DNA of 35,620 nt from Bryobacteraceae bacterium (GTDB lineage: Bacteria; Acidobacteriota; Terriglobia; Bryobacterales; Bryobacteraceae): positions 1 through 35,620 of the forward strand of contig JASHNT010000047.1 of the NCBI GenBank assembly GCA_030041495.1, given 5' to 3'. The position numbers and the translations under genes were made by a program. Shown piece after piece: positions 19,604-34,340 of the stretch. Position 1 is the first letter of the stretch, and each line of letters begins with the position of its first letter. The notes beneath the pieces are model-generated. The model made no database searches. It saw nothing but the letters and a program-made list of their open reading frames with translations, and was not told where the DNA came from.

Positions 19604-19679
19604 GGCCAGGTAGCTCAGTTGGTAGAGCGCAGCCCTGAAAAGGCTGGCGTCGGCGGTTCGATTCCGTCCCTGGCCACCA
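19604..19679 (+). tRNA. tRNA-Phe (GAA anticodon), integration site of the element
   Basis: Full cloverleaf: acceptor GGCCAGG/CCTGGCC, anticodon arm CAGCC-CTGAAAA-GGCTG with anticodon GAA, T arm GGCGG-TTCGATT-CCGTC, discriminator A and encoded CCA. The last 21 bases are repeated at 34320-34340, so an element has inserted at its 3' end and restored the gene. Confidence 0.96.
19659..19679 (+). other. attL core (21 bp, tRNA-Phe 3' end)
   Basis: The last 21 bases of tRNA-Phe, including the T loop, acceptor strand and CCA. They are identical to 34320-34340; the identity ends at both edges. Confidence 0.92.
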
Positions 19680-19697
19680 CCCTAACCCGTTCGATCT

Positions 19698-20822
19698 TCA
19701 ACACTTAGCTGTCTGCTCCTCCGTCTGTGCCAAATGTGTGCCATGGATTTCCCGGATCAGCATGTCCTGCTGTGTCTGATACTCAGGAGTCCACTTCGCG
19801 TAGTACCGGCGGACGATGGCGGGGCTGTCCCCGAGAATGGCTGCTACTTTCTCGATGGACCCGTCCTTCTTCCCCAAGAGTTCTGAAGCAAGCGTGTGGC
19901 GAAACCGGTGCGGATGGCCGCCCGCTACACCAGACAGCTTGAAGACAGCGTGCAGGGTGCGCCAGGCGGCCTTTACCAGGGTGCGCTGGCCCGTCGCGTC
20001 GCTATAGAAGAATCGCTGATTGTCTTTGGCGGCCTCTCTCGGGTGCGGAAGAACCGCGAGCGCGTCCAGAACGGAGCTGGGCAACTCCACTCGGATGATC
20101 CTCTTGTTCTTGACTGCGCGCTTTTCAAGGCGGTTTCCTTTGATGTGGTCGCGGGACAGGGTGACGACGTCGCTGATCCGCAGGCCGGCATAGCGCATCA
20201 ATAGGATCATCGCTTTCGCCCGCCGGCGTTCGTAACTACTCGTGCCGATTCGGTCGCAGGCGGAGATGATTTTGATAATCTGATCCCTGGTGTACGGTTC
20301 GACCTGGTTGGGTTCAAGCACACGTGGAATCTTGATAGCCTTGGCTGGATTCTTCGTAGCCCAATCGCGGTCGCGGCAGAACTCGAACAACTGACGGAGC
20401 AGTTCGACGTCTTTCACCCACGATTTGAATCCGCCGCGCATCCCCGCGTACTGGTCCATTGCTTCGACGTTGACCTGATCGACATAGTGCAGCGACTCCC
20501 TCGCGCAGAACTCTGTGAAATAGCGGAGGAGCCTCTTATAGCGGCGTTTCGTTTCCTCTGCGTTCCCCTGGTGCTGCGCCTGAAAGGCTGCTACCGCATC
20601 GAGAATGCGTTTCCGGGGACGTCCAAGAGCGCCGGCTTGCATCTCTTCGAGGCGCCTCGCTGCCCGGGCAAGATCGCGGGTTTTTAGTGTGCGTCGGATC
20701 CTGTGGCCTGCTTCGTTGGTGCCGACGGCATGCAGGACGCATTTCCCTCGGCACTTGAGATAGTTGGGTCCTTTATTTTCGTCGGGGCACTTTGGTGAGT
20801 GCCGTCTTTGGAGTGTTAGCAT
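19698..20822 (-). CDS. int: Tyrosine recombinase (integrase)
   Basis: A 374-residue integrase. The N-terminus carries Cys residues in a zinc-finger-like pattern (SPKCPD...YLKCRGKC). A SAM-like core-binding domain follows (about residues 70-165), then the catalytic domain with Arg215 (RYAGLRISDVVTL), His305-Arg-Phe-Arg308 (HPHRFRHT) and the tyrosine at 340-341 (VRRYYAKW). Start 20822 is chosen over 20894 because MLTLQRRHS begins the recognisable family N-terminus and lies just after the upstream HTH gene (10-base gap). The 3' end lies 18 bases from the tRNA-Phe attL, the usual place for the integrase of a tRNA-targeting element. It should carry out integration and, with an excisionase, excision. 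Confidence 0.95.
   Translation of the reverse strand: MLTLQRRHSPKCPDENKGPNYLKCRGKCVLHAVGTNEAGHRIRRTLKTRDLARAARRLEEMQAGALGRPRKRILDAVAAFQAQHQGNAEETKRRYKRLLRYFTEFCARESLHYVDQVNVEAMDQYAGMRGGFKSWVKDVELLRQLFEFCRDRDWATKNPAKAIKIPRVLEPNQVEPYTRDQIIKIISACDRIGTSSYERRRAKAMILLMRYAGLRISDVVTLSRDHIKGNRLEKRAVKNKRIIRVELPSSVLDALAVLPHPREAAKDNQRFFYSDATGQRTLVKAAWRTLHAVFKLSGVAGGHPHRFRHTLASELLGKKDGSIEKVAAILGDSPAIVRRYYAKWTPEYQTQQDMLIREIHGTHLAQTEEQTAKC
19726..19743 (+). other. Left arm-type site pair (TGTGCCA, 11-bp spacing)
   Basis: Two direct TGTGCCA copies (19726-19732 and 19737-19743) start 11 bases apart, 46 bases inside the attL core and within the 3' end of int. A matching pair with the same spacing and direction is at 34218-34235 inside attR. 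Confidence 0.5.
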
Positions 20823-20832
20823 GACTGACACC

Positions 20833-21075
20833 TTAGCTCTGGGTCCGACGACGGTATTCCTGCATCGCCAACGAGTATGGAATCCGCAGTTCAACGCGCG
20901 ACCGCTTCCCGTTCTTTGCCGGCTCGCCGAGTTTCAGCACGCCAGGCATGTCTTGGAACCAGCGAATGACGCAGGAGGGACTGATTCCCCAAAGCTCAGC
21001 CAAGAACTGCGGTGAATAGTGCTGGTCGACCACGACTGGCTGCGGATCGACAACGCGATTCATCGACCCGATCAC
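20833..21075 (-). CDS. Small HTH DNA-binding protein, excisionase-like
   Basis: An 80-residue basic protein. The segment YSPQFLAELWGISPSCVIRW followed by 'FQDMPGVLKL' reads as a winged or MerR/Xis-like helix-turn-helix, and 'RVELRIPYSLAMQEYRRR' as the typical end. It starts at GTG 21075, which overlaps the stop of the upstream gene (GTGA), or at ATG 21063. It ends 10 bases before int, so int is probably translated from the same mRNA. It may act as recombination directionality factor or regulator of int. Confidence 0.65.
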   Translation of the reverse strand: MIGSMNRVVDPQPVVVDQHYSPQFLAELWGISPSCVIRWFQDMPGVLKLGEPAKNGKRSRVELRIPYSLAMQEYRRRTQS

Positions 21076-21428
21076 TGGTTCACCTCCAACCTAAGGGCCG
21101 ACGCGATCGCCAGGGTGATGGTCCGAGCCTTGTCGCTGCCGACAGCCCTACCTGTATTCCGGCCGACGCGCACAAGCGCGCTGAAGCCTCGTTCTGGAGT
21201 GCTCGATAGACTGTATCGGCTCGCGGCGCTGCTCAGCAGTTGCATCGCGTGTTCGACGCGCTCAAATGGACGGAACCGCGATCTCGCGATCCAGCTGCGG
21301 CCGGAGGTCAGATACCTCCCAGGGGCGGACCGCCAACCCAGGATCGTGCGTGCCAACTCATCTGTCAGACGGGCTTCGTCTGAACGTGTTGGCTTCGAAG
21401 AACGGCCGCGCGACCTTGGATGGCTCAT
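21072..21428 (-). CDS. Hypothetical protein of the integration operon
   Basis: A 118-residue product. Its ATG at 21428 overlaps the stop of the upstream HTH gene (ATGA), and its own stop overlaps the next start (GTGA), which makes it a convincing coupled gene. Content: basic N-terminus, then ELARTILGWRSAPGRYLTSG, 'WIARSRFRPFERVEHAMQLL', and 'VRVGRNTGRAVGSDKARTIT'. I know no function; the position between two excisionase-like genes suggests a role in recombination or its control. Confidence 0.6.
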   Translation of the reverse strand: MSHPRSRGRSSKPTRSDEARLTDELARTILGWRSAPGRYLTSGRSWIARSRFRPFERVEHAMQLLSSAASRYSLSSTPERGFSALVRVGRNTGRAVGSDKARTITLAIASALRLEVNQ

Positions 21429-21664
21429 GCTGCCCGACCTCCGCCGGCCGGCAACTCTCTGATGAAGTCGGCGAGGTCCGGACCAAAATATCGAACACAG
21501 CGACCGATTTTGCGAAACCTCGGTCCGCGGCCCTGCCGACGCCAAGCGCGCAACGTCTCGACGGAGAGGCACAAATATGAGGCGGCCGCCCGCTCGTCGC
21601 AGAACCCTGTGCACCCCAGTATTCCTTGGGTTGGAAGAGGTTGGGTTGGTATTGGCATACTCAA
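21425..21664 (-). CDS. AlpA/excisionase-type HTH protein
   Basis: A 79-residue product with a clear MerR-like (HTH_17) domain at about residues 23-70: DERAAASYLCLSVETLRAWR, then 'GRGPRFRKIGRCVRYFGPDLADFI'. Such proteins act as excisionases or as activators of integrase genes. It heads the chain of coupled genes leading to int. The upstream gene-free stretch 21665-21728 probably holds the promoter. Confidence 0.8.
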   Translation of the reverse strand: MSMPIPTQPLPTQGILGCTGFCDERAAASYLCLSVETLRAWRRQGRGPRFRKIGRCVRYFGPDLADFIRELPAGGGRAA

Positions 21665-21728
21665 TCGTATGCAACCGGGTTTGCGATTGAAATAGCCCCG
21701 AATTTAATAGCCGCTACTGAATTCCAAG

Positions 21729-22283
21729 CTAATTTCGTAGCGTGAACATCTGGCGGTAGATAGCCCCACGAACGCGGTCACGCAATTTTTTTTGCCTGGT
21801 GGGCTTTCTTGTGGCACGGGACCACTCTTCCGGATAAAACTGCGCCGCGAAGTTGCTCAGAACTTCCTTTTCGGGAACGGGGCGTCCCCGCCTCTCCCAT
21901 TCCTGCTGAATCTTTAGGGATTGGTCGGCCGGAGGTCGCCCTCTCAGGTTGGCTCTCGGCACTATTACGCCCTCTGGAGGAGGCGCGTCCAGGTACTGAA
22001 GCAATAGCTTGATCATGTCCCTAAAGACATCTGGGCTGTTTTCCTTGGAGGCTGCCTTAAGGATCCTTCCGAATTCTGTTTTCTTAAGTTGCGCTGCGGC
22101 TATAGCAAACGGTGTGGGTTGAAATAGAAGCTCTCGCAGGCTGCCGATGCTAACCTTGGCTTCGTGACCGTGGATGGTAAACAGCCTCTGCATCCACTCG
22201 CTGTACTCCGGTACAGCCCAGAATTGAGGCCACGAGAGCCTCGGCTGCTGACTGGAAACGGGCGTCCATGGTTTTCTTGGCAT
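21729..22283 (-). CDS. Hypothetical protein, paralogous C-terminal domain (A)
   Basis: A 184-residue product starting directly after the stop of the upstream gene (TAGATG, no gap). The last 65 residues (RGRPPADQSLKIQQEWERRG, 'FYPEEWSRA', 'KKLRDRVRGAIYRQ') align with the end of the 22284-22781 product. The N-terminal 110 residues are unique (SWPQFWAVPEYSEWMQRLF). The C-terminal part is strongly basic and could bind nucleic acid. No family recognised. Confidence 0.6.
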   Translation of the reverse strand: MPRKPWTPVSSQQPRLSWPQFWAVPEYSEWMQRLFTIHGHEAKVSIGSLRELLFQPTPFAIAAAQLKKTEFGRILKAASKENSPDVFRDMIKLLLQYLDAPPPEGVIVPRANLRGRPPADQSLKIQQEWERRGRPVPEKEVLSNFAAQFYPEEWSRATRKPTRQKKLRDRVRGAIYRQMFTLRN

Positions 22284-22781
22284 CTATGGTCTCGGCAGTT
22301 TAGTTCCCGATTTTTGCGCTCGAAGAATTGCTCCGCGCACTCTGTCTCTCAGGCGTTTACGTCCCCGAGTTCCCGCCGCGGCGACCTCCTCGGGATAGAA
22401 TTTTCTGGCCAACTCGTCGCAGACGACTCTTATAACCGACGGACTCCCGAGATCGATCCAGGCCTGAAAAATGGCATCCGTGTGACCTGCCGGGCTCCGA
22501 CCCCGAGGCTTCTTTCCCAGGTGCGCAACCACTTCCCTGCTGACGGTGTCCGCGGTCTTTATGATCTCTACTTTTCGGGCCGCTGCAGCGTTCGACGCCG
22601 ATTGAGTCTCTTTCAGCAATTCCCTGATCTCGCGAACTTGCCGTTCGGCCGCCGCAAGTACAATGCCGTTGTGCGACGTGGGAAGTTGGTCAAATTGCGC
22701 TCGGGCTAGTTCTAGCCGTTCAAACGCGTCAACGAGTTTCTCTTCGAGCCTTCGGCGAGGTTCGGTAGCGTTAGAACTCAT
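22284..22781 (-). CDS. Hypothetical protein, paralogous C-terminal domain (B)
   Basis: A 165-residue product. Residues about 1-75 are a charged, probably coiled-coil helix (RRRLEEKLVDAFERLELARA, 'AAERQVREIRELLKETQSA'). Residues about 92-160 match the end of gene A downstream: RGRSPAGHTDAIFQAWIDLG, 'LARKFYPEE', 'KRLRDRVRGAILRA'. GGGAG precedes the ATG at 22781. It is cotranscribed with gene A and probably with the small gene 22821-23075. Function unknown. Confidence 0.6.
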   Translation of the reverse strand: MSSNATEPRRRLEEKLVDAFERLELARAQFDQLPTSHNGIVLAAAERQVREIRELLKETQSASNAAAARKVEIIKTADTVSREVVAHLGKKPRGRSPAGHTDAIFQAWIDLGSPSVIRVVCDELARKFYPEEVAAAGTRGRKRLRDRVRGAILRAQKSGTKLPRP

Positions 22782-22820
22782 TTCGCGCTCCCTGCCTGCA
22801 TCAGGTTTGTGAAACCAATT

Positions 22821-23075
22821 CTATTGGCCCTCGGGCAATTCTTCGTGCTCAACAGCGGTTCCCCCGGCCTCAGCGATTAGGGCATCGATCTCGTCGTCTT
22901 CGAGATGAATCACCAGTGCTTGGCAAGCCGCCTCGAGGCTTTCATGCGTCAATCGCATTCGTGTCTCGACACGCTTTAGGAATGCCTGTGCACTCAGAGG
23001 TTCCAAAGAGGAAGATCGCTTCGAAAGCGCTGCTGATTCCAAGTCTGCGATTCTGCGTTGGAGAGCCGACCTCAT
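22821..23075 (-). CDS. Small acidic protein, paralogue of 27388-27627
   Basis: The ATG at 23075 gives an 84-residue product that aligns along its whole length with the 79-residue product at 27388-27627; the shared core is FLKRVETRMRL followed by 'ESLE.A.QALV.HLED.E.DAL.AEAG'. The longer frame to 23153 is not shared and looks non-coding. The protein is predicted to be all-helical with an acidic C-terminus. The other copy is coupled to a terminase-small-subunit-like gene and the DUF927-like gene, so these may be small accessory or adaptor proteins. Upstream, 23076-23352 shows no gene. Confidence 0.6.
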   Translation of the reverse strand: MRSALQRRIADLESAALSKRSSSLEPLSAQAFLKRVETRMRLTHESLEAACQALVIHLEDDEIDALIAEAGGTAVEHEELPEGQ

Positions 23076-23352
23076 GACGCGCGGAATCCCCCAAAGGGTT
23101 TCCGAGACAAACATACCATGCCACGAATGTTCGATACCGATAATACGGAACAACAGGCACCTACTGTGCCGCAGTCAAGCGTGCTCCCCTTCACACGCGG
23201 TAGGCGCCCTCGCCGTGAGGGTCTCAAGAATCGCGTCACCTCTGGGACGCGAGCGCGATGAAATTGCGTGCGAGCATGTACAGAGGTTATTGTCCGGACG
23301 AAGCTACCCGTAGGAACACAGTTCACCGCCCTTTTGTTAGTGTTATTAGATC

Positions 23353-23958
23353 GTGCCCGCGCCCAAAGCCAACCCTGGGTTTTCCCCGCCAGAGGAGGGC
23401 CCATCTCATGAAATCTGCTGGGCCAAAACCACGGCCACGGGCGATCCCGGAATAACCGCTTACGATCACTGCCTTAATGTGGGCTGCGTGGCACAAGAAA
23501 TTGTCGATGCCCTCCCACAACACACTCGCGATTTAGCGCCCGCGGGAGCAACCTGCCTCGCCGCATTACACGACGTCGGTAAAGTATCGCCGGGCTTCCA
23601 GGCGAAGTGCGCCCAGTGGCTGGAACGCCACAATTTCTTCGAACGGGCACGCCTGGAAAACTGGGGCGCGGCGGAAGCCGATCATGCGAGGGTGAGCCAG
23701 CTCACGCTTCAACGGCGACTCCCCAACTCCAACATGCACTGCTGGGCAGCCGCTGCCGGCGCTCATCGTAGGACTGTCTTGCACACTCACGGGGCCGACC
23801 AGCGAGTCGTGCTCTTGCCGTTGGGCAAGGGACTGAGCAGGGAACCGCAAGTTTACCCTACGGGTTTTGGTGCTACTTCGCCGGCATATGGGCTCGGCGT
23901 GATTCCGGGAGCAGCGGGAATGCTACTAACGCGTACTCGCCAGGGATCGGCGGCGTGA
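23353..23958 (+). pseudogene. Cas3 HD-nuclease domain fragment
   Basis: Residues 21-140 match the N-terminal HD domain of Cas3: CWAKTTATGDPGITAYDHCLNVG (His39), 'ALHDVGKVSPGFQAK' (His73-Asp74), 'ADHARVSQ' (His111) and 'AAAAGAHRR'. In working Cas3 the last motif is GHHG; here the second His is Arg (residue 139). After about residue 142 the family pattern is lost and no helicase domain follows, against a full Cas3 of 700-900 residues. No other cas gene or CRISPR repeat is near. It is probably a captured and decayed fragment, though a free-standing HD protein cannot be excluded. GTG 23353 is the given start. Confidence 0.6.
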
Positions 23959-24002
23959 CGATTCCGGCGACCAGCATCGAATACGTCGACAAGGCCCGCA
24001 AA

Positions 24003-24515: not shown

Positions 24516-24734
24516 CTAGACGTTCCTCACCAAGTCGCGAACTCGGACTTGAAGCGCGTTAGCGATGCGTTGCAGGCTGCCGATGGTGGTCTTCACCTGG
24601 CCATTTTCTATTCGGTACATGTGGGTGCGGTTGATCCCAGCCAGGTCGGCGAGCTGCTCTTGCGTTACACCCTTCTTGCGACGAATCTTTCGAATCGTCT
24701 CCCCGACTATTTTTTCGGCGTCTTGCAACGCCAT
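24516..24734 (-). CDS. XRE-family HTH regulator
   Basis: The ATG at 24734 gives a 72-residue protein with one Cro/CI-type helix-turn-helix: IRKIRRKKGVTQEQLADLAG, 'INRTHMYRIENGQVKTTIGSL', 'RIANALQV'. The frame also runs open to 24767, but the extra residues look non-coding. It is divergent from the secreted-protein gene at 24797 and could act on the palindrome between them. It is a candidate master repressor of the element. Confidence 0.85.
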   Translation of the reverse strand: MALQDAEKIVGETIRKIRRKKGVTQEQLADLAGINRTHMYRIENGQVKTTIGSLQRIANALQVRVRDLVRNV

Positions 24735-24751
24735 CAGCGTATGGAGTATGC

Positions 24752-24759
24752 TTGCGCAA
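24752..24759. promoter_or_regulatory. Palindrome between the XRE gene and the secreted-protein gene
   Basis: TTGCGCAA, within TGCTTGCGCAAAAGCA, lies midway in the divergent intergenic region. Related TTGCA/TGCAA words flank it at about 24724 and 24775. It is a plausible operator for the XRE protein. Confidence 0.3.
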
Positions 24760-24796
24760 AAGCACACTGCATTTATGCAAGGAGGTGTTGTTACCG

Positions 24797-25303
24797 ATGT
24801 TGATGAAGCGGGCCCTTGTTCTCTGCTCGTCCTTTGCGCTTACGACAACTCTACTGTCATCTGCGGATATTCCGAAGCCACTGAAAAGCCGGTTTGTTGT
24901 GGGCGATCCCGTTTGGCGCGAATTTCCGATCCGTCAAGATTTGCAGAACCAGTACGAGCGCTGCTGGCAGTCCGCCGTGAACACGCTTCTCGACAACAAT
25001 TTCGACGTGGCCACGATGGACAAGGATTCCGGCTACATTCGCACGACACAAAACACCGGCGTTGTCGTGCTCAACGGAAATTGGGTCTACCAAGTTCAGG
25101 TCAGCGTGAAATTCTCTTACACTCCAGGTGATTCGAAAGCTAACCCGCCGACACCCGGAACCGTCGATAAGGTACGCCTTCAAGTCGCCGGAGAGATAGC
25201 CATGAGCAATAAAGGCGCGCTGAAGGAATATTTCCGCGGTTACGATACGGCTTTACTTCAGAACCTTCTTCAAGATCTACAGGCCAAGCTCGGTCCACGT
25301 TGA
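24797..25303 (+). CDS. Secreted hypothetical protein
   Basis: A 168-residue product starting at ATG 24797, with AAGGAGGTG about 10 bases upstream. Signal peptide: MLMKRALVLCSSFALTTTLL with cleavage near SSA-D. The mature part has WQSAVNTLLDNNFDVATMDK, 'SGYIRTTQN' and 'VYQVQVSVKFSYTP', the alpha-beta pattern of small envelope proteins whose domain reads out a residue such as 'G.I.T'. There is no lipobox. It is unlike the surrounding element genes, which are cytoplasmic, so it may be cargo that changes the host envelope. No family recognised. The stretch 25304-25513 holds no other gene. Confidence 0.65.
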   Translation: MLMKRALVLCSSFALTTTLLSSADIPKPLKSRFVVGDPVWREFPIRQDLQNQYERCWQSAVNTLLDNNFDVATMDKDSGYIRTTQNTGVVVLNGNWVYQVQVSVKFSYTPGDSKANPPTPGTVDKVRLQVAGEIAMSNKGALKEYFRGYDTALLQNLLQDLQAKLGPR

Positions 25304-25513: not shown

Positions 25514-27391
25514 TTACAGGTCCCGGGCCCTCAGGTGGAGGACTTGCCTGGGACGGCCTTCCAGCGTGCGACGTACCAGCAGCACCTGACGAGCCATGTC
25601 AACGCTGGCCAGAAGGTTGTGTTCGCGAAGCCGATGCCGCAGTGTCTGCTCGGATACGGGTAACCGATCGCTGCCGGCCATCTGCTGGGCGAGTTCGTAG
25701 CTAGCGGTCGGCTCGAGGTACAAATCGGAACCCGCCAGCCACCCGAGTCTGGGCCCTTGGGGCACCCAGCGAACCGACGACTTGCGTTGCCACCCCCAGG
25801 CCGTGGAATCTCCTTCCGGGGGCCTTCCCTCACGATCAGAAACATGCGCCCGGCCGGTGGCGATAGCCGTCTTCAGTAGACTGAGAAACTGTTGCGCCGG
25901 GTCGGCAGCTTGATGATATTTCGCCTGGCGCGCTAGCACTTCGCTCAAAGCGAGGGCGCCTCTCTGTGCAAGCGCTTCGCGCTCGATGGTGTCGACTGCG
26001 TTCGTCTCCTCGGCGAACTCCAGGAAAATCTCAAGACTGGATTCGAGTTCCGCCAATGCCGACGGCAGCCGCCGGTGGGCGGCGCCTCCGAAGGACTGCC
26101 GCAATTCCTCAGCTCGCGCCCGCAGCCTCTGCCGGAGCGAGTCGTAGCGTCCAGCCATCCAAATCAGGAACGCGCCCATGGCCATCGAAAACTGTCCTTG
26201 GAGAGCGGCTTCCTGGCACTCTGTAAGCGCGACTGTGTCGACCTCGCCGGGGTTTACATTAATGATCAGCAGCCGGGAGCGGATGCTCAGTCCCTTGGGA
26301 ACCTCTTCTCCCGTTGCCAGAACTAATGCGCGTGGTGGCTGCGACGAAGCTGACGTCTGCCCGTTGCTCATTCGGCTTCGTCCCTGCTGATTGCCGGCGG
26401 CCCGGAAGATTCGCTCGGCGATGCCACGAAGTTCCCGATCCCCCGGCAGCCCGGTCGGAGCAAAATCATCGACCACCAGCAGCGCGTCCTTGGCTAGAAA
26501 CGCGAGCATCTCCACCGAATTTGCAGTCGAGGCGAAATTGGCGGGCAAATGCGCTGCATCCATCTCCGCTCCAAAGTGCTGCTGGCACAGGGCTGCCATC
26601 GTGCTCTTGAAGACCCCACTGCGCCCGGCAAGAAAAAGGCTAAAGGCAGCGCCTCCCAACGCCGCACGGTACACGCCCGCCAGCAGCGGGAACGTGATCC
26701 GATCCGGCGCCACATCGAGAATGCGCAAGCTGTCACGGATCGCTCGGACACCAGGGTCCGGATCGGAGGGTTCGGCAATCCGATACTCCTGCAGGGCGAT
26801 TGGGACACGCACTTGAACTTCGGAAGCAGTTGGATCTGCTCCCAGCGCTCCGCCGGCGTGTAGATACACCCAATCGGCCCCGTGCTTTCTCCAACCCATG
26901 TGCGTGAACACGCGTTCCTGCCGGATGTTGGTTGAAAGGCACTGAATCGCCGCCCGAGCGTGCTGTTGTTGACCAGGATAGATGATGGCCTCCGGCCCGA
27001 GCATCTTCAGCACCCATGTCATCCGGTTGAACTCCGCCGCGGTGACCGTGACGGCTAGCTTCAGGCCGCCGAGTTCGACCTCGATTTCAAATTCCCGGTG
27101 ATGTTGTTCTCCATCGTCGAGCAGCATGTCTTTCACGATGCGGGCCCGGAAGTTCGCCAGTGTGGTGATCTTCAGGTACCCGTTCCTGAGCCGCTCTTGC
27201 CGGACGATCTCGCCGCCGCGCTCCGCATAGGGAGGCAGGGCTTTGGACGAGCGTGCGATGGCGGAAGTGTTTCGCCCCAAGCTCTCTGGGCGCGGGTCAT
27301 CCTCCGGTCCCATCCACACCATGCGGAAGTTCATAGGCAGAGTCATGCATGGCTCACCCCGAGGGGCAGAGTCAAGCCTGACCTGCCTCAT
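25514..27391 (-). CDS. DUF927-like ATPase (helicase/replication type)
   Basis: A 625-residue product. The centre has an ATPase module: FLAGRSGVFKSTMAALCQQH (residues 253-272) and LLVVDDFAPTG (304-314, Asp308-Asp309). The P-loop reads G-R-S-G-V-F-K-S-T, with Phe where Gly normally precedes the Lys; I recall this form from related mobile-element ATPases. The C-terminus (TAWGWQRKSSVRWVP, 'DLYLEPTASYELAQQM', 'QTLRHRLREHNLLAS') is the winged-helix-like tail of primase-helicase proteins with DUF927. No primase domain is visible. Start ATG 27391 overlaps the upstream stop (ATGA). It probably powers unwinding or replication of the element. Confidence 0.72.
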   Translation of the reverse strand: MRQVRLDSAPRGEPCMTLPMNFRMVWMGPEDDPRPESLGRNTSAIARSSKALPPYAERGGEIVRQERLRNGYLKITTLANFRARIVKDMLLDDGEQHHREFEIEVELGGLKLAVTVTAAEFNRMTWVLKMLGPEAIIYPGQQQHARAAIQCLSTNIRQERVFTHMGWRKHGADWVYLHAGGALGADPTASEVQVRVPIALQEYRIAEPSDPDPGVRAIRDSLRILDVAPDRITFPLLAGVYRAALGGAAFSLFLAGRSGVFKSTMAALCQQHFGAEMDAAHLPANFASTANSVEMLAFLAKDALLVVDDFAPTGLPGDRELRGIAERIFRAAGNQQGRSRMSNGQTSASSQPPRALVLATGEEVPKGLSIRSRLLIINVNPGEVDTVALTECQEAALQGQFSMAMGAFLIWMAGRYDSLRQRLRARAEELRQSFGGAAHRRLPSALAELESSLEIFLEFAEETNAVDTIEREALAQRGALALSEVLARQAKYHQAADPAQQFLSLLKTAIATGRAHVSDREGRPPEGDSTAWGWQRKSSVRWVPQGPRLGWLAGSDLYLEPTASYELAQQMAGSDRLPVSEQTLRHRLREHNLLASVDMARQVLLVRRTLEGRPRQVLHLRARDL

Positions 27392-27627
27392 TCCGGCTCG
27401 TCCTCCGGGGAGATGCCAGCTTCGGCCAAGAGCGCATCGAGCTCGTGATCTTCCAGATGAACGACCAATGCCTGAAAGGCTTGCTCGAGGCTCTCACGCT
27501 TCAATCGCATCCGTGTTTCTACTTGCTTCAAGAACGAATGCGCGCTCACAGGTCCCGAGGGAGAGGCGTGTTCTTGAAGAGCAGCCGATTCCAGACGCGC
27601 GACTCGTTGCTGAAAAGTGGATCTCAT
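27388..27627 (-). CDS. Small acidic protein, paralogue of 22821-23075
   Basis: A 79-residue product overlapping both neighbours by ATGA: the ATG at 27627 with the upstream stop, and its own stop with the next start at 27391. The core FLKQVETRMRLKRESLEQAF and 'QALVVHLEDHELDALLAEAG' is shared with the other copy. Helical and acidic at the C-terminus. The tight coupling to a terminase-small-subunit-like gene and an ATPase suggests one complex or one pathway. Function unknown. Confidence 0.75.
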   Translation of the reverse strand: MRSTFQQRVARLESAALQEHASPSGPVSAHSFLKQVETRMRLKRESLEQAFQALVVHLEDHELDALLAEAGISPEDEPE

Positions 27628-28010
27628 TCCTTACTGTCTTTGGCAGCCTCTTCTAACGCCACCAGCCGTGCTTCGAGGTCTTCGATCTCGATCGCTTTCG
27701 CGGCTTGCTCTAAGATGCTCGTCGCCGCTCGGACCCGGCTGGCAGCAGGCGCTCTGGGGTCAACCAAGACCTTGCCCAAAGCGGAAACGGCCGCGGTCGT
27801 CATCGTGTGGATGCGTGCGATCGCTTGCGAGAAAGCCGCACGCTTGGCCTCGCGATAGGCGGCAGCAAACGCTGGCTCCTGCAACCAACGGAACAGCGTG
27901 CGAGTCGCAATCCCGATTGAGCGGGCAGCTTCCTCGGCGTTGCGCTGGGAAAGCAGAGCCGCAATCGCTTCCTCTTGCTTGCGCCCTAACTTTTCCCGAC
28001 GGCGCGCCAT
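27624..28010 (-). CDS. HTH protein resembling phage terminase small subunit
   Basis: A 128-residue basic protein. An N-terminal helix-turn-helix reads KQEEAIAALLSQRNAEEAAR, 'SIGIATRTLFRWLQEPAFAAAYREAKR'. A long helix follows, with 'PRAPAASRVRAATSILEQAAKAIE' and the acidic end 'EDLEARLVALEE'. This layout (HTH, then oligomerising helices) is that of small-terminase-like proteins. It heads a three-gene chain with ATGA overlaps leading to the ATPase. In a satellite it could redirect DNA packaging; as no large terminase is present, it might equally be a replication or regulatory protein. Confidence 0.6.
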   Translation of the reverse strand: MARRREKLGRKQEEAIAALLSQRNAEEAARSIGIATRTLFRWLQEPAFAAAYREAKRAAFSQAIARIHTMTTAAVSALGKVLVDPRAPAASRVRAATSILEQAAKAIEIEDLEARLVALEEAAKDSKE

Positions 28011-28147: not shown

Positions 28148-28159
28148 CAAGGAGAAACC

Positions 28160-28564
28160 ATGAACTCGACACTTACCGAAGAAAACGCGAATGCCCCGGC
28201 CGCAGTGGAAGGGCCCAAAGCTGGCAGGAAGACCGCACGTTCGCCACGTCGCGCGCCCGTTGCGCCCAAAAAGGGAAAGGCGGGGAAGAAGGCCACGCCG
28301 GCCAAGAAAGCGCCCAAGGGAGCGAAGAAAGCCAAGGGCGGCAAGGACGCCAAGGGAGCCCGCGAAGGCAGCAAGACGGCCAAAATCCTGGACCTGTTGC
28401 GGCGCAAGGGCGGCGTCACCGCCAAGGAACTGATGAAAGCCACCGGCTGGCAGCCGCACAGCGTGCGCGGATTCCTGTCCGGGACGGTCGGCAAGAAGAT
28501 GGGCCTGACGGTGGTATCCGCCAAGGGCGAGGACGGGGAGCGCACCTACTCCATCCAAGCCTGA
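28160..28564 (+). CDS. DUF3489-domain protein with basic N-terminal tail
   Basis: A 134-residue product from ATG 28160 with AGGAG 5 bases upstream. Residues about 15-70 are Lys/Ala/Pro/Gly-rich and disordered, like a histone H1 tail (APKKGKAGKKATPAKKAPKG). Residues about 70-134 form the DUF3489 domain, a winged-helix-like fold: 'SKTAKILDLLRRKGGVTAKELMKATGW', 'HSVRGFLSGTVGKKMGL'. Such proteins are common on mobile elements and probably bind DNA. It is the only plus-strand gene among the minus-strand genes here, and it converges on the methyltransferase gene through a strong hairpin. Confidence 0.82.
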   Translation: MNSTLTEENANAPAAVEGPKAGRKTARSPRRAPVAPKKGKAGKKATPAKKAPKGAKKAKGGKDAKGAREGSKTAKILDLLRRKGGVTAKELMKATGWQPHSVRGFLSGTVGKKMGLTVVSAKGEDGERTYSIQA

Positions 28565-28588
28565 ATCATCGCAATTTTGAATCACATG

Positions 28589-28614: not shown

Positions 28615-28647
28615 TTGCTCGTTCTGGAGATTCCCGCCAATCCCGAT

Positions 28648-29949
28648 TCACGAAGCCTCCCGCTGGCGCTCGGCCGCGACCTCCTCAAACGTACGGCCAT
28701 CTCCGTCGAGCGTCGCCTTGTTGCCGGAGAGGCTCTGCCAGCGCTGGACGATGACGTCGACGTACTTCGGATCGAGCTCCAGTCCGTGACAGACGCGCTC
28801 CGTCAGTTCCGCAGCCGCCATTGTTGTGCCCGAGCCGAGGAAGGGATCATAGACGAGCTCGCCGCGCCGGAGATGGTTCAGGATTGGCCGACGCATCAGC
28901 TCGACGGGCTTCTGTGTCGGATGGTCGTACTTGTCTTCGTCGCTGCCACCCATGATGAACTTCGGCGACGGCGAATTCCAGATAGTCGAGTTCTCGCCGG
29001 CCTTGCCGAACCAAGGAGCCTTCGGCTTTCGTAGATACCAGCAAGGTTCGTGTTGATACCAATAATGCGTGCGCGTGAGAACCGTTCTGCCTTTGTCCCA
29101 AATGATCTGTTGCGGATAGAGGAAGCCGATCCGGACGAGGCCGTTCAATACCTCGGTCGTGTGTACGGAAGCATGCCAGACATAAGCGACCTCAAGGCTT
29201 GAAACCAACTCGAATGCCTCGCTCCAGTCGGCACGGGTATCGCCCGAGATGGTCGTATTCGTGTGACCCGATGTGCGGTTCAGCAGGTACGCCGGTTCAG
29301 CGGGTCCGCAGCCATTCAATCCTGCGCGGTCCCTCCAGGATCCGTCGAGTAGAATTCCGTAGGGCGGGTCGCAGACCATGAGTCGCGGTTTCCGGTCGCC
29401 GAGCAGCCTGGCAACCGCTTCCGCACTGGTCGCGTCGCCGCACAGAATCCGGTGCTTTCCGCACAGCCACAGGTCGCCGAGGCGGGAGACGGGATTCTCC
29501 GGAACGGGCGGCGCAGCGTTGGCGCGCTCCTCATCGTCGATCGCGAGCAGGCCATCGATCTCGCCGGGATCGAACCCGCTGAGGCTGAGGTCGTAATCCG
29601 CAGCTTGGAGGTCCTGCAGTTCGAGCGCGAGGAGTTCCTCGTCGAACTCCGCCCACGTCGCGGAGCGATTCACCAGCAGCCTGAACGCCTTCACCTGCGC
29701 CGGTGTCCATTCATCGCAGAGCAGCACCGGAACCTCGGTGATGCCGAGCTTCCGCGCGGCCTTCAGGCGCAGATGGCCGTCGACGACTTCGCCATCGCTG
29801 CGCGCCAGCACTGGGATCTTGAAACCGAATTCGCGGATCGAGCCGCACATCCGGTCGACTGCGGCGTCGTTCTTGCGCGGGTTGCGCGGATAGGGGACCA
29901 GCTTGTCGATCGGCCAGATCTCGATTTTGGCTACAGCGGGTGCCGTCAT
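28648..29949 (-). CDS. ParB-domain/DNA methyltransferase fusion protein
   Basis: A 433-residue product from ATG 29949 (the longer frame to 30099 is not shared by the second copy). Residues about 8-110 form a ParB/Srx-type domain (PIDKLVPYPRNPRKNDAAVD, 'DGEVVDGHLRLKAARKLG'). After a linker comes an N6-adenine or N4-cytosine methyltransferase: motif IV 'MVCDPPYG', and near the end 'DKYDHPTQKPVELM' and motif I 'DPFLGSGTTMAAAELT'. Motif IV before motif I is the beta-class order. No restriction enzyme gene is next to it, so it is a solitary phage-type methyltransferase that may protect or regulate the element. A homologue lies at 34648 outside attR. Confidence 0.92.
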   Translation of the reverse strand: MTAPAVAKIEIWPIDKLVPYPRNPRKNDAAVDRMCGSIREFGFKIPVLARSDGEVVDGHLRLKAARKLGITEVPVLLCDEWTPAQVKAFRLLVNRSATWAEFDEELLALELQDLQAADYDLSLSGFDPGEIDGLLAIDDEERANAAPPVPENPVSRLGDLWLCGKHRILCGDATSAEAVARLLGDRKPRLMVCDPPYGILLDGSWRDRAGLNGCGPAEPAYLLNRTSGHTNTTISGDTRADWSEAFELVSSLEVAYVWHASVHTTEVLNGLVRIGFLYPQQIIWDKGRTVLTRTHYWYQHEPCWYLRKPKAPWFGKAGENSTIWNSPSPKFIMGGSDEDKYDHPTQKPVELMRRPILNHLRRGELVYDPFLGSGTTMAAAELTERVCHGLELDPKYVDVIVQRWQSLSGNKATLDGDGRTFEEVAAERQREAS

Positions 29950-29979
29950 GATCCCTCGATAGCAATTGCCAAGTTCAGT

Positions 29980-29985
29980 CGTCAA
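29980..29985 (-). promoter_or_regulatory. Conserved -35-like TTGACG upstream of the methyltransferase
   Basis: TTGACGACTGAAC begins 36 bases before the ATG, exactly as in the second copy (34612 to 34648). Conservation of this leader between the copies suggests a promoter or binding site; the -10 is not clear. Confidence 0.35.
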
Positions 29986-30017
29986 CAGAAATCGCGTCGT
30001 CGACTGGCTTCCAATAG

Positions 30018-31100
30018 CTACCGAGAGTTCATCTGAACCACTGCGGACGAATGAACCGAAGTTACTCCATGTGCCTCCGTGATGCTCCTCAGTAGCCACA
30101 TGGGTATGCCTAAGTCCCGCCGTACTTTCCTAAGGTCGATCGGACTCCCATAAGTGGACTCCAGCATCCTAAGCAGTAGCTGAGGACTCTCCTGTGGAAT
30201 CGCATCGTCCCCAGGTTCTCGCTTGGCCGTCCTCCACCCTTTAGCGGAGACCTGCTGCATCAGGTACTTGAACTGGTTATCCGTAGTGATCCCTAGCTGA
30301 TTAGAGCGCTTTGCCAGGAATTGAATCGACGCCCCCCACCTGTGTCGGAGTGAGGCTAGTGACGCCAGGGTGACGGGGGCAATCATCTCCCGATGCATCG
30401 CCTCCTCGGGTAATACAAACTCGCCGACGAAGGCTTTTACCTCCTCTTCAGCCTCTGCGACGGTTCCTTGCAGGGGGGCGTGCATTATCAGATGACCCAC
30501 CTCCTCGGAACTGGTGTAACGATCTCGGTATCCAACTCCCCGACCGACAACGCAAATCACGGGGACGTCCTTATCCCGGCCGACCCATGCCGAAAATCCG
30601 TCCAGGCCATCAATGTCCAAGGGCACGCGGATTATTAGAACTCCAGCTCGTTCTAGAACAGACGTGACGTTTTTTATCGGAGTGTCAGGAGACAAGCCTA
30701 GGTGGCTACGCGTCAAACGGGCGGCTTCTGTTGCAGATTCCGCTCCAAACCTCGGCAGTGTTACGGGAATCGGACGGAATCGCGCCTTCAGAGAGAGCAC
30801 AATCTCAAAAACCAACTGCGCGAGCTTGTGTGCCTTCGTCTTGTCCTTTGGAGAGACCTTCGCCTTACCACGATAGAGGAGCGAGCCCACGGGGAACTCC
30901 TCCGGCGGATTTGGATCATTCAGGAACCTGAGGTCGAAGCCAGTGTGAGTGGACAGTAATTCTGCGACCGTATCCGTAGGCTGAAACAAGCCGGCCTCGA
31001 TCTGAGCAATCGTGGATTGGGCAACTTCCGCAAGATCCGCCAGTCCCTGCTGAGTTAGGCCGCACAGCTCGCGCGCCTGTCGCAGGCGCTCGCCATTCAT
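30018..31100 (-). CDS. XRE-ImmA/IrrE (COG2856) protein with altered metal motif
   Basis: A 360-residue product. Residues 3-55 form a Cro/CI helix-turn-helix (RLRQARELCGLTQQGLADLA, 'VAQSTIAQIEAG'). Residues about 125-240 match the ImmA/IrrE peptidase domain: 'ERAGVLIIRVPLDIDGLDGFSAW' and 'RYTSSEEVGHLIMH', then 'EEEVKAFVGEFVLPEEAM'. The usual HExxH is Glu199-Glu-Val-Gly-His203, so the first zinc ligand is lost and peptidase activity is doubtful. Its start overlaps the stop of the 31097 gene (ATGA). Such proteins act as antirepressors, or as the antitoxin-like half of two-gene modules; here it may work as a sensor-repressor. Confidence 0.82.
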   Translation of the reverse strand: MNGERLRQARELCGLTQQGLADLAEVAQSTIAQIEAGLFQPTDTVAELLSTHTGFDLRFLNDPNPPEEFPVGSLLYRGKAKVSPKDKTKAHKLAQLVFEIVLSLKARFRPIPVTLPRFGAESATEAARLTRSHLGLSPDTPIKNVTSVLERAGVLIIRVPLDIDGLDGFSAWVGRDKDVPVICVVGRGVGYRDRYTSSEEVGHLIMHAPLQGTVAEAEEEVKAFVGEFVLPEEAMHREMIAPVTLASLASLRHRWGASIQFLAKRSNQLGITTDNQFKYLMQQVSAKGWRTAKREPGDDAIPQESPQLLLRMLESTYGSPIDLRKVRRDLGIPMWLLRSITEAHGVTSVHSSAVVQMNSR

Positions 31101-31774
31101 TTACCAGCCTTTCGCTTTCTCTCTTCTTCGGATAACTTAACCAAGATGCCATCGAGATCGTCCAGTGGCGGAATCGGTGGCGCAGGAACACCTCGCAAGC
31201 CCTCTTCTGGACGTGGCATCCGCTCGCACCAAAAAGCGGAGACGTCGCCAGCCCTCGACCCGCCGATTGCAGGCAAGGCGAGCCATAGACCGGATAGCCC
31301 GTAGACGGAATCAAAGTCCCACAGGACTAGCAGATTTGCGGTCGTCTGCACGGACTTCTTACCAGCCAAATAAAAGGAAGGTATCTGGCCGTAAAAGGCG
31401 ATTTTCCGTTGAGACGTACCGCACCCAGGCAGCACGCCACCAGCGCCTTTCAGTATCTTGACGTGGTATCTACCGTAGTGAAACGAGAGGCCTAGGAAGG
31501 GAAGAGGGTCCACCGTCCAGTCGTCCTCTAATTGAGCATCGATCCCCTTGTCCTTGAGAAGTCGTGTCGCGTGGAAGCGTAGCATCGATGCAGCAAATCC
31601 CTCATCGATCCGCTCCCCTGGACACTCAGAATCACGGTAAGCTGCTACTTTTGCAGCCCCAAACTCCAGGGCTTGATAAAGGATCAAAGGAACTCGGTCC
31701 AGGTTCTCCATTGCCGCGCCAAACGTAGGAAGATCAGGAGGCAGCTGGACCAGTGTTGTTTGGTTTTCCGCCAC
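31097..31774 (-). CDS. Hypothetical partner of the XRE-ImmA/IrrE-like protein
   Basis: A 225-residue product starting at GTG 31774. It contains DDWTVDPLPFLGLSFHYGRY, 'HVKILKGAGGVLPGCGTSQRK' and 'YGQIPSFYLAGKKS', then a middle 'NLLVLWDFDSVYGLSGLWLALP'. There is no signal peptide and no family I recognise. The stop overlaps the next gene by ATGA, so the two are coupled. It could be the effector of a toxin-antitoxin-like or defence module; this is inferred only from the arrangement. It appears to be leaderless and to have an operator over its -10. Confidence 0.6.
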   Translation of the reverse strand: MAENQTTLVQLPPDLPTFGAAMENLDRVPLILYQALEFGAAKVAAYRDSECPGERIDEGFAASMLRFHATRLLKDKGIDAQLEDDWTVDPLPFLGLSFHYGRYHVKILKGAGGVLPGCGTSQRKIAFYGQIPSFYLAGKKSVQTTANLLVLWDFDSVYGLSGLWLALPAIGGSRAGDVSAFWCERMPRPEEGLRGVPAPPIPPLDDLDGILVKLSEEERKRKAGK

Positions 31775-31775
31775 G

Positions 31776-31810
31776 ACTGATATTATCAGTTAAAAAAGAA
31801 AATCCGTCAA
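31776..31810 (-). promoter_or_regulatory. Promoter with overlapping operator palindrome
   Basis: On the minus strand TTGACG (31810-31805), a 17-base spacer and GATAAT (31787-31782) form a near-consensus sigma-70 promoter. The first base of the GTG start (31774) is 7 bases after the -10, so the transcript is probably leaderless; no ribosome binding site is present. A perfect palindrome ACTGATA-T-TATCAGT (31776-31790) covers the -10 and the start point, as expected of autoregulation by the XRE protein. Confidence 0.65.
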
Positions 31811-33150
31811 GCCCCGCGCTCCACGAATTTTGCATGTCGCTTCGTGAACCTCAGCGGGACTGAAACATTCTGCGGGCCATTGCGCTGCTTGGCAATGATC
31901 AAATCCATTTCAACGACGTTGGATTGATCTTCCTGACCGGCACGTCGGGCCGGCAGCAAGACGACGTCGGCATCCTGCTCGATGGACCCGGAGTCGCGGA
32001 GGTCGCTCAACCGTGGCCGGCGATCCTCGCGCTCCAGGTCCCTGTTGAGCTGGGCCAGAACTACCACGGGGAGATTGAAATCACGAGCTAACCGCTTTAT
32101 CCCCCGCGAAATCTCGCTCACTTGCTCGTAGCGGCGTCGCTCGGACCCTCCACTGGTCTCCACGAGTTGAAGGTAGTCGATGACGACCAAGCCGATGTTG
32201 TGGCGGGCCGCAAGGCGGCGAAGGGCGGAACGCATCGCTGGAATGGTGCAGCCGGTCGTATCGTCGATCCAGAGTCGACATCCGTCCTCGTCCGTGAGGT
32301 CCGCGTATGCCGAGCTCAGCGCCAACTTCTCGGATTCCATCGCAAGTCCCTGCGTGAGCTTCAGTGTGTCCACTTCCGCGCGTGCAGCCGCCATTCTCAT
32401 CAGGATCGCCGCGTCCGACATTTCCAGAGTGAAGAACGCGACTCCCACGCCGTGTGTGGCTGCGTGACCCACGATCTGACAAGCCAGCGCCGTTTTCCCC
32501 ATGGAAGGTCGAGCCCCGATCACGGTCATTTGCCCAGGCAAAAGGCCACCACCCACCAGCATTCGGTTCAGCCCGGGCCATGGTGTCGGGATCCCGCGGG
32601 CGCTGTCGGGGGACAGAATTGTTGTAATGCCTCCCGCGCGGTTCACCACCTCCATCGGCGTTCGGAAGCCCGCCGGAACAGTCTCCGCGGTGAGATCTGA
32701 TATCGCTTGCTGCGCGCGAGCCAGGATCTCGCTTGTGGGGTCGGTGGCGTGGAAACAGTCCTGGATGAGCGTGTGGTAGCGGATGATGGCCTGCCGGAGA
32801 ATCGATTTGTCTCGAACCATGGAAACGTAGCTATCCAGGTGTGCCAGTTCCGGCATCCCCTCGGTCAACGAGGTGATGTACGACATGCCATCGACGGATT
32901 CGAGTTGTCCCCGCCGCGCCAGTTCGTCGACCACGGTGACGTAGTCTATAGCGGTGCCTGTCTCGGCAAGGTGGAGGATCGCCAGGTAGATGCGTTTGTG
33001 TCTTTCAAGACTGAAGTCGCCGGGCTGGAGCGTTGCTGCAACGTTCTCGACAGGTTGATGGCCGAGCAAGAGGGACGCCAGGATGTATCTTTCGGCGTCA
33101 GGGGATGACGGCAGACCGCTTTCGAAGAGTGCATCGAGGTGGGTTTTCAT
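31807..33150 (-). CDS. dnaB: Replicative DNA helicase, DnaB family
   Basis: A 447-residue product with both DnaB parts: an N-terminal helical domain (about residues 15-120, SPDAERYILASLLLGHQPVE) and a RecA-like ATPase. Walker A is 'GARPSMGKTALA', followed by 'VAFFTLEMS', 'IGLVVIDYLQLV' (Walker B) and 'DLRDSGSIEQDADVV'. Length is normal. Its ATG overlaps the stop of the upstream initiator-like gene (ATGA). Being within the element, it is a mobile-element copy, not the host gene, and should unwind the element's own origin. Confidence 0.95.
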   Translation of the reverse strand: MKTHLDALFESGLPSSPDAERYILASLLLGHQPVENVAATLQPGDFSLERHKRIYLAILHLAETGTAIDYVTVVDELARRGQLESVDGMSYITSLTEGMPELAHLDSYVSMVRDKSILRQAIIRYHTLIQDCFHATDPTSEILARAQQAISDLTAETVPAGFRTPMEVVNRAGGITTILSPDSARGIPTPWPGLNRMLVGGGLLPGQMTVIGARPSMGKTALACQIVGHAATHGVGVAFFTLEMSDAAILMRMAAARAEVDTLKLTQGLAMESEKLALSSAYADLTDEDGCRLWIDDTTGCTIPAMRSALRRLAARHNIGLVVIDYLQLVETSGGSERRRYEQVSEISRGIKRLARDFNLPVVVLAQLNRDLEREDRRPRLSDLRDSGSIEQDADVVLLPARRAGQEDQSNVVEMDLIIAKQRNGPQNVSVPLRFTKRHAKFVERGA

Positions 33151-34136
33151 TCGTTCATGAGCCTTCGCCAGTACTCGTCCGCGCTACAGAAAGCGGTCTC
33201 AGTTACCGTCGGTTGTTGATGCTGCCAAGCCCGGTCTTCCAGGAACCGTGACAGGTTGGGAGCGAAGCGGCCGCCCTGCTCCTTCCAACGTTCGCCAGCC
33301 TGCGATTTGGCCACGGCATAACCCGCGTCGAAGTCGGCTCGTGCCAGCACGCCGGCGAGGATCAGGTCGAGGGCCTTGCCCTTCGCCTCCGCATTGCGGT
33401 TTCTGTTGGGGTGTCGCCAGACTAGCGCGTTCCACCAGGCATCGAAGTCCGCCTCACTCGCCCAGCCGCCGATGGGCCATACGGGAGACGGAGGCTGGGG
33501 GTTCGCTTCGGAGTCACCGCGCGTGCGCGCGGACACCCCGGTGGAGGGCGGCGCCTCGGCCGGCCCGCTCCGCTGATCCGAGGAAGATGTACGTGCTTCC
33601 TCTGTACGAGCTTCTTCCTTATATAGAGGGTGCTCGTTTTTGCACTTCAAAACGGGCGAATCTTGCACTTCAAAATTGCCGGGATTGCACTTCATAATCC
33701 GTATCCGCGTTTGGGGCCGGACCTCGTAAATCTGGTGCCAGAGGAACGTGTACTCGTTCTCCAGACCGCGGCCCCCGTGTCCACGGCCTCGTCGGCGATG
33801 ACGAATCAGACCGAAGGCCTCGAGGTCCGCCACCCAGGTTTTAACCTGGCGGACTGATCGCCCAAGGTCCGCCGCCAACGACGCGTAGGAAGGGAAGCAG
33901 CGACCGTCCTGGCCGGCGCGACGAACCAGGCGTATGAACAGGTTCTTGTGTCCGTCCGTGAGGCGGTGGCGGGTTCCGAGGATTACGACGCCACGAAGCC
34001 GGGACAGGCAATCCGGGGGATAGAAGCCGCAAGAAACCCGCCAGGGATTGAACGGCTGACCGACTTCTAAAGCACCGGCCCGGGTTGGTCCCTGGCGCGG
34101 TGCGTCGTTGGTTTCGAATGCGCGCGCGGCGAGCAT
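33147..34136 (-). CDS. HTH replication protein (initiator or helicase-loader-like)
   Basis: A 329-residue product. Residues about 55-125 form a winged helix: 'TDGHKNLFIRLVRRAG', 'CFPSYASLAADLGRSVRQVKTWV', 'LEAFGLIRHRRRGRG'. A charged, Pro/Ser-rich linker follows (about 165-215). The C-terminal part (about 220-329) contains 'EADFDAWWNALVWRHPNRN' and 'FAPNLSRFLEDRAWQ', typical of phage O-like and DnaD-like replication proteins. GGAG precedes the ATG at 34136. Directly upstream of, and coupled to, dnaB, it is the likely initiator that recruits the helicase. The origin may lie within this gene, as in lambda O, but I saw no clear iterons there. Confidence 0.75.
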   Translation of the reverse strand: MLAARAFETNDAPRQGPTRAGALEVGQPFNPWRVSCGFYPPDCLSRLRGVVILGTRHRLTDGHKNLFIRLVRRAGQDGRCFPSYASLAADLGRSVRQVKTWVADLEAFGLIRHRRRGRGHGGRGLENEYTFLWHQIYEVRPQTRIRIMKCNPGNFEVQDSPVLKCKNEHPLYKEEARTEEARTSSSDQRSGPAEAPPSTGVSARTRGDSEANPQPPSPVWPIGGWASEADFDAWWNALVWRHPNRNRNAEAKGKALDLILAGVLARADFDAGYAVAKSQAGERWKEQGGRFAPNLSRFLEDRAWQHQQPTVTETAFCSADEYWRRLMNE

Positions 34137-34217
34137 GCTCGTTCTCCATGAGCCGCCCGCCAGCGGCGCTCTTCAATTTCCCGGAGACAAGAAACGGCAT
34201 CAGCCGGAAACGCAAAG

Positions 34218-34235
34218 TGTGGCAAAAGTGTGCCA
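34218..34235 (+). other. Right arm-type site pair (TGTGGCA, TGTGCCA, 11-bp spacing)
   Basis: TGTGGCA at 34218-34224 and TGTGCCA at 34229-34235 repeat the left-end pair at 19726-19743 in spacing and direction. They lie 84 bases inside the attR core. The interval 34137-34319 has no gene. Confidence 0.5.
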
Positions 34236-34319
34236 GGAAACTGCAAAACTGGCGCTTCTAGCCCATCTGGTGCGACGAAGAAACAGTAACTTACGTGTTA
34301 TCAGAGGGGCTAGGGGGAC

Positions 34320-34340
34320 CGATTCCGTCCCTGGCCACCA
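34320..34340 (+). other. attR core (21 bp copy of the tRNA-Phe 3' end)
   Basis: Exact copy of 19659-19679. The rest of the tRNA is absent here, so this is an integration scar rather than a second tRNA gene. Confidence 0.92.

Follow-up and report, generated by a model that had tools for sequence, protein, structure and literature searches.

The element and its genes

A 14.7-kb integrative element that may be phage-satellite-like was analysed in contig JASHNT010000047.1 of a Bryobacteraceae bacterium. The window, i.e. the whole stretch of DNA studied, is this one contig in full (35,620 bp; C142 of a 6.1-Mb, 144-contig assembly); below, G-numbers refer to relatives' genomes, C-numbers to contigs, and L-numbers to fetched stretches or viral contigs. 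The target gene is a tRNA-Phe(gaa) identified by ARAGORN (19604–19679, + strand), the last 21 bp of which form the left core of the attachment (att) site (attL; 19659–19679, + strand), an exact direct repeat with the sequence CGATTCCGTCCCTGGCCACCA. The attR core is an exact copy of it (34320–34340, + strand), preceded by a C where the tRNA gene has a T (element-type 22-mer, 34319–34340). The cores lie 14,661 bp apart, start to start. No other exact 21-bp direct repeat exists in the window, none of 50 first-order Markov sequences contained one, and CGATTCCGTCCCTGGCCACCA occurs in the whole assembly at these two places only, with up to two mismatches allowed. Base composition did not clearly distinguish the element from its surroundings. 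The initial annotation had described a 14,661-bp unit within an exact 21-bp repeat of the tRNA-Phe end, and this was borne out by ARAGORN, the repeat search and the assembly-wide search.

All listed genes but three run from attR towards the integrase gene (int), in the order: a replication initiator (Rep), a DnaB-like helicase, a 225-aa open reading frame (ORF), RmrA, a ParB-DNA methyltransferase fusion (ParB-MTase), a small terminase subunit (TerS), a 79-aa ORF, a DUF927-like protein, regulators, an AlpA-like protein, g2 and int. The opposite strand bears a DUF3489 gene, a truncated Cas3-HD gene and a 183-aa ORF. The coding fraction is 88% (gene list of this analysis), and four neighbouring gene pairs overlap by 4 bp. 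Eighteen ORFs of the element were scanned against Pfam and PHROGs, the ORF at 21072–21674 and shorter ones being outside the scan. TerS aside, these 18 returned no match to the large terminase (TerL), portal, capsid or tail families, which would be expected of a complete prophage, nor to other structural or lytic families or to relaxase/conjugation families. The family scans thus agree with the gene set originally proposed (int, AlpA-like, replication, TerS-like and methyltransferase genes, with neither virion nor conjugation genes).

Conserved ends and arm-like sites

The tyrosine integrase gene (19698–20894, − strand; PF00589, 3.7e-16) has its stop codon adjoining the tRNA gene, and its relatives in G022 (66%) and G030 (47%) both lie beside tRNA-Phe. 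Alignment against named genomes returned two loci, both in contigs of Terriglobia bacterium metagenome-assembled genomes (JANXYJ010000046.1 and JAIQFI010000042.1); judged by these relatives, the host belongs to Terriglobia (Acidobacteriota). The gene for g2, a small helix-turn-helix (HTH)-like protein (20833–21075, − strand), adjoins that of the integrase also in G022, G013, G030 and G126. G030 and G022 each hold two exact copies of the element-type 22-mer, and G019 holds one; when one mismatch was allowed, 18 of 61 genomes matched, mostly at tRNA copies. Outside the core, the right end was identical at 88 of 119 columns in G022 (both contigs) and at 88 of 118 in G019 (∼74%), versus 62 of 117 in G030. 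Past the right end, the two G022 copies run into two different DNAs, and the G019 copy into DNA resembling that of the window. An assembly accident as the origin of the unit was rejected, since the right end was found independently in G022 and G019.

Each end also bears one copy of an integrase-arm-like 18-mer. The left copy (TGTGCCAAATGTGTGCCA; 19726–19743, + strand) lies inside the 3′-end of int, and the right one (TGTGGCAAAAGTGTGCCA; 34218–34235, + strand) occupies the same place in the right ends of G022 and G019. With up to three mismatches the motif occurs at these two places in the window (random mean, 0.05); it is present at the matching ends in G022, G019 and G018, and absent from the ends of G013 and G030. 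As the motif was chosen after viewing the ends, and the left copy is inside int, only the right copies provide an independent check. The proposal that the unit is complete is supported by the ends kept in other species and by the arm-like sites. G019 retains DUF3489 (76%) and a methyltransferase fragment (81%) before the same right end; the idea that it also keeps the start of Rep was rejected, neither the Rep search nor a later comparison having found one.

The replication module and its candidate origin

Next to attR lie genes for a lambda-O/DnaD-like initiator, Rep (33147–34136, − strand; HTH_36, 2e-13; phrog_270, 1.2e-18; phrog_391, 4e-10), and a DnaB-like replicative helicase (31807–33150, − strand; PF03796 (DnaB_C), 3.6e-74). 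Rep found no match among phage records. Three 13-bp iterons spaced 22–23 bp apart inside rep (33640–33697) constitute a candidate origin: none of 100 synonymous shuffles reached the same level, and among six other rep homologues three or four copies were present in two, two copies in three, and none in one. The lambda origin, too, lies inside a gene, O. A further gene encodes a DUF927-like AAA+ helicase/primase-like protein (25514–27391, − strand; phrog_1139, 2.2e-6; PF06048, 0.012, a weak match below the cut-off), with long homologues (39–57%) in G011, G003, G049 and contigs C63 and C52 of the source genome.

TerS and the MTase-DUF3489 cassette

The terS gene (27624–28010, − strand) matched phrog_7344 (1.3e-7) and PF13022 (1e-7). 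A structure model of TerS built from three sequences showed an HTH followed by a long helical hairpin (pLDDT 81.7); that built from the single sequence had a pLDDT of 66.6, and its PDB search was uninformative. The best PDB matches of the three-sequence model in Foldseek were eight chains of 2AO9, the phage protein phBC6A51 (best E 5e-3, probability 1.00), with TM values of 0.42–0.52 over the seven best chains. We take 2AO9 to be a terminase-like ring, although its title does not say so. The next matches were a TetR-type regulator (E 0.27) and the Sf6 TerS (E 0.42). In a viral structure library, three unnamed proteins passed E 0.001, and several lower matches were named terminase small subunit.

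Of 150 genomes of the family, 41 contain TerS relatives, the source genome among them. The neighbourhoods of the 19 strongest matches outside the source genome were examined in 18 stretches, several of them cut by contig ends. The ParB-MTase (28648–29949, − strand in the element; phrog_498, 1.2e-124) and the winged-helix protein DUF3489, encoded between terS and the ParB-MTase gene (28160–28564, + strand; PF11994, 4.6e-24; phrog_10315, 5e-22), accompanied TerS in 11 of these stretches, DUF3489 only in 4, and neither in 3. In one (G132), TerL directly followed TerS, giving the order MTase-DUF3489-TerS-TerL; phrog_2 was the sole TerL probe for these 18 stretches. Viral contig L221 has the order MTase-DUF3489-TerS-TerL-portal with a TerS of a different type (phrog_57), and phage MW202613 the order replisome organizer, MTase, DNA-binding protein, terminase, portal. 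We interpret the MTase-DUF3489-TerS cassette as the entry point to packaging in phages.

The source genome yielded ten ParB-MTase matches, including two in the window; six span most of the protein, and one is cut by the window end. Copies lie at 34600–35620 of the window and on contigs C9, C61, C36, C49 and C63, and MTase, DUF3489 and TerS-like genes occur together on C9 and C49. The MTase-DUF3489-TerS genes were also seen near tRNA genes on L169, L170, L048 (tRNA-Pro), L175 and L180 (tRNA-Ala), where no integrase relative was observed between, nor was an att repeat detected. For eight tRNA genes on other stretches, no second copy of the tRNA 3′-end of 16–26 bp was found in the fetched DNA.

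Related prophage and small units

A genome of the same bacterial family, G030, contains a 42.7-kb prophage at tRNA-Phe with genes for TerS, TerL, portal and major head protein. Its integrase (47%), g2 (47%) and 22-bp att core (identical) are those of the element; it differs in being larger, in carrying virion genes, and in having no further gene in common with it. The initial annotation had counted a full structural module in relatives of the element as refuting its reading; the G030 prophage goes halfway to this, as it has such genes but shares only int and g2 with the window. Derivation of the element from this prophage by deletion was rejected on the same grounds. In G030, the DNA flanking tRNA-Phe on its right is found once more on the right side of the core at 128801, and the DNA on the left of that core reappears at 171520; an N gap lies between them. 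Together they make a right-end/left-end junction of the sort that tandem copies or a circle would give; this integrase/att family thus works as a unit.

Rep relatives were detected in 21 of 237 family genomes (the source included), at 22 places outside the window, 12 of which were examined as stretches. ARAGORN identified a tRNA or tmRNA on three of them; a search for att repeats on two of these was positive in each case. The G181 unit, at tRNA-Arg, has exact 45-bp att repeats 5,536 bp apart and encodes an integrase, Rep and a TerS-like ORF; AlpA-like and resolvase ORFs were assigned there by eye. The G102 unit, at tRNA-His, is delimited by 49 identical bases within a 73-column match, 11.6 kb apart, and encodes an integrase, Rep and TerS (phrog_57, 3.8e-7). 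No TerL, portal or capsid match was found in the three G181 and six G102 ORFs scanned. On a third stretch (L203; G126:C147, 2639–15500), relatives of int, g2 and Rep lie beside a tmRNA; it also has very large ORFs (1365 and 1170 aa), defence-like by eye. In viral contig L233, Rep, DnaB and MTase follow one another as in the window, and DUF3489 is encoded on the same strand after another 4 kb; ten ORFs of this contig gave no virion family. At the Rep place G099:C157, a phrog_2 match lies ∼31 kb away.

A phrog_2 search of the source genome returned a TerL with stops on C63, short ORFs on C61 and C76, and a weak match on C100. The short TerL-like ATPase ORFs (C61:38363 and C76:100817) are in an apparently chromosomal context by eye, and similar orphans may be common. 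Since the probe matched all 36 genomes probed and yet missed the TerL of the G030 prophage (phrog_9), its misses are weak evidence.

The right flank and tRNA-Phe as an insertion site

The contig ends at 35620, 1,280 bp past attR. The ORF at 34348–34551 (− strand) belongs, by flank identity with relatives, to the end of another tRNA-Phe element and not to the unit; it may be the 3′ remnant of a different integrase, and hidden Markov model searches assigned it to no family. Alignment of the first 70 bases past attR with the sequence to the right of att copies in both G019 and G005 (C42) gave 79% identity over 68 columns, and the complete tRNA-Phe in G020 and in G001 is also followed by 16–17 of the first 20 of these bases. 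Beyond lies a second ParB-MTase gene, also not part of the unit (34600–35620, + strand; 85% identical, inverted and cut by the contig end). Second copies of the tRNA-Phe 3′-end, partial or contig-cut, were present in at least 10 of 23 genomes of the genus (G000, G004, G005, G009, G010, G013, G017, G019, G020 and G022). These copies, together with the other element's end to the right of attR, indicate that tRNA-Phe is a stacking site. No clean empty tRNA-Phe site was demonstrated, the contig ending inside the second ParB-MTase gene. Several relatives have contigs that stop on reaching the tRNA-Phe 3′-end or its second copy (G009:C25 and C93, G010:C10 and C14, G017:C296 and G019:C5), the pattern that att repeats would leave by interrupting assembly.

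A possible phage-satellite-like element and its rivals

The bounded unit, its conserved ends and arm-like sites, the candidate origin, the TerS, the TerS-TerL neighbourhoods and the small relatives suggest a TerS-carrying, phage-satellite-like integrative element of Acidobacteriota (Terriglobia), a reading to which we assign a probability of roughly 0.5. The satellite-like gene content originally noted is supported, that of TerS being strengthened by the structure model and by the place of its relative beside TerL in G132. In such an element the integrase would move the DNA between tRNA-Phe and a circle, aided in excision by the AlpA-like protein; Rep would bind the iterons in its own gene and load DnaB; and TerS would bind a site on the element and deliver its DNA for packaging to the TerL and heads of another phage, either resident in the same cell or infecting it. 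The ParB-methyltransferase might mark that DNA. Several observations weigh against this reading. No PDB match of the TerS model reached E <0.001, TerS had no relative in phage records and only two in viral contigs (none with the single query), and the DUF927-like protein had none in viral contigs (single query). Viral contigs L207 and L208 carry a TerS-like gene plus a different TerS (phrog_309; phrog_83 with TerL phrog_9). Members of the TerS family are also present at loci where neither an integrase relative was in view nor an att repeat found, a situation that fits leftovers of prophages. In the small G181 unit the TerS match is weak (phrog_2538, 3e-3; 32% to the window's TerS) and was not recovered by tblastn at E 0.01, and at one Rep place, G133:C19, phrog_2 gave a weak TerL-like match 2.5 kb from the Rep relative. 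No helper was seen in the source genome (phrog_2 only), nor any element circle, packaging site or particle.

The main rival, a serious possibility though one we doubt, is that of a prophage minus its late genes, no longer mobile after deletion of the TerL-to-tail region. The G030 prophage, with the same integrase/att family and with TerS, TerL, portal and head protein, speaks for this and against a satellite, as do the phage-like order of replisome organizer, MTase and TerS place (MW202613), the truncated Cas3-HD gene inside the element, and the reduced version in G019, where DUF3489 and an MTase fragment persist near the same right end with no Rep match listed. Such decay is harder to reconcile with the scant overlap between the element and the G030 prophage, with the retention of both ends, arm-like sites and iterons at 88% coding, or with the recurrence of the int-Rep-TerS set in two small att-bounded units at other tRNAs. 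An integrative and mobilizable element, moved by conjugation or spread with the host chromosome, in which the TerS-like protein is an HTH regulator only, might be read from the best Pfam match (PF13022, named as a transposase HTH) and from the int-g2-Rep relative at the tmRNA with its large, defence-like ORFs, but the scanned ORFs included no relaxase match, and the TerS fold match and the relative beside TerL point elsewhere; we consider this very unlikely. Slighter still is the chance that the unit is in truth a larger composite island, made up of at least two tandem tRNA-Phe elements, the tRNA-proximal of which is the one described by the initial annotation. The second att-proximal end and second MTase to the right of attR, where the contig ends, and the second tRNA-Phe 3′-end copies in the genus would fit it; the sharp right boundary, with different DNAs after the two G022 copies and window-like DNA in G019, would not.

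A wider reading, which we put forward tentatively and regard as rather improbable, is that Acidobacteriota have a native satellite family that carries TerS of diverse types and is built on a lambda-O-like initiator whose iterons lie in its own gene. Those at tRNA-Phe would share integrase family, att core and site with prophages, so that satellite and possible helper might compete and recombine at one docking place.

Comparison with known satellites

The element had initially been likened to the phage-inducible chromosomal islands (PICIs), for which the available part of PMC6092414 (Fillol-Salom 2018) gives as features a unique att site never occupied by prophages, a size of ∼15 kb, no structural or lytic genes, genes peculiar to PICIs, a conserved layout of the replication origin, and induction by phages, interference with them and packaging into their particles. 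The size and the lack of detected structural or lytic genes stand; the att-site feature fails, since in G030, a family-level relative, the same integrase family (47%) and the 22-bp core at tRNA-Phe flank a prophage with TerL, portal and head protein, and PICI membership is therefore not claimed. Compared with the Gram-negative PICIs as that part describes them, the likeness lies in size, integrase, AlpA-like regulator, replication genes with a candidate origin, TerS (in some) and lack of structural/lytic genes. The differences are the integrase family and att core common with a prophage, a lambda-O-like Rep plus DnaB instead of Pri-Rep (the iterons lie inside rep, but this Rep is not of the Pri-Rep type), the ParB-MTase and DUF3489 beside TerS, and the host phylum. 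As regards PICI-specific genes, MTase and DUF3489 also adjoin phage genes in viral contigs. The element matches the sequence features listed for phage satellites in general in the accessible text of PMC13376191 (7–20 kb, att repeats, integrase, regulation, replication, no structural genes), its helper and transfer being inferred.

Acidobacteriota are abundant in soils. A 2018 survey of Acidobacteria counted 35 predicted prophages in 19 genomes, six of them without virion-associated genes (PMC5900883). In the part of that paper available these six are treated as likely degraded, with one sentence stating that they could be satellite phages; the satellite idea for this phylum is thus already in print. 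The six resemble the element in having no virion genes; they differ in that no element family is described there and that terminase was counted as a virion marker. Such islands appear only in the reference list in the available part of PMC8262856. Our literature search found no paper joining phage satellites with Acidobacteria by name, and broader searches no Acidobacteriota satellite among the matches listed. The satellite-like reading, if true, would establish satellites in Acidobacteriota, and the three att-bounded units (5.5, 11.6 and 14.7 kb) would offer a defined set in which to ask if TerS, where TerL is missing, reflects packaging hijack or a relic.

Regulators, accessory genes and defence

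The AlpA/Xis-like HTH_17 protein is encoded at 21425–21664 (− strand; PF12728, 1.8e-7; phrog_66, 8.6e-7), and an Xre/Cro-type regulator at 24516–24767 (− strand; PF01381, 8e-14). An RmrA-type Xre-ImmA antitoxin gene (30018–31100, − strand; PADLOC RmrA, 9e-62; NF052239, 5e-27, below the cut-off) is overlapped by 4 bp by the 225-aa ORF (31097–31774, − strand), a putative RmrT toxin by position that belongs to no family and gave no match in a plasmid search; the two may constitute a RosmerTA-type anti-phage system. The available text on RosmerTA (PMC10440598) likewise describes an RmrA-type protease-domain antitoxin paired with another gene; in the element, by contrast, the partner lacks a family match, and its toxin role is putative. 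The orphan Cas3 HD domain gene, truncated to its N-terminal part, lies at 23353–23958 (+ strand; PF18019, 2e-14; TIGR01596, 50.3 bits, cut-off 43.5). The 183-aa ORF (24752–25303, + strand) has no family, nor do g4 and g5, two related ORFs (21729–22781, − strand) that are 33% identical. The ORF g6 (22821–23075, − strand) is a 66% paralogue of the small 79-aa ORF called directly after terS (27388–27627, − strand).

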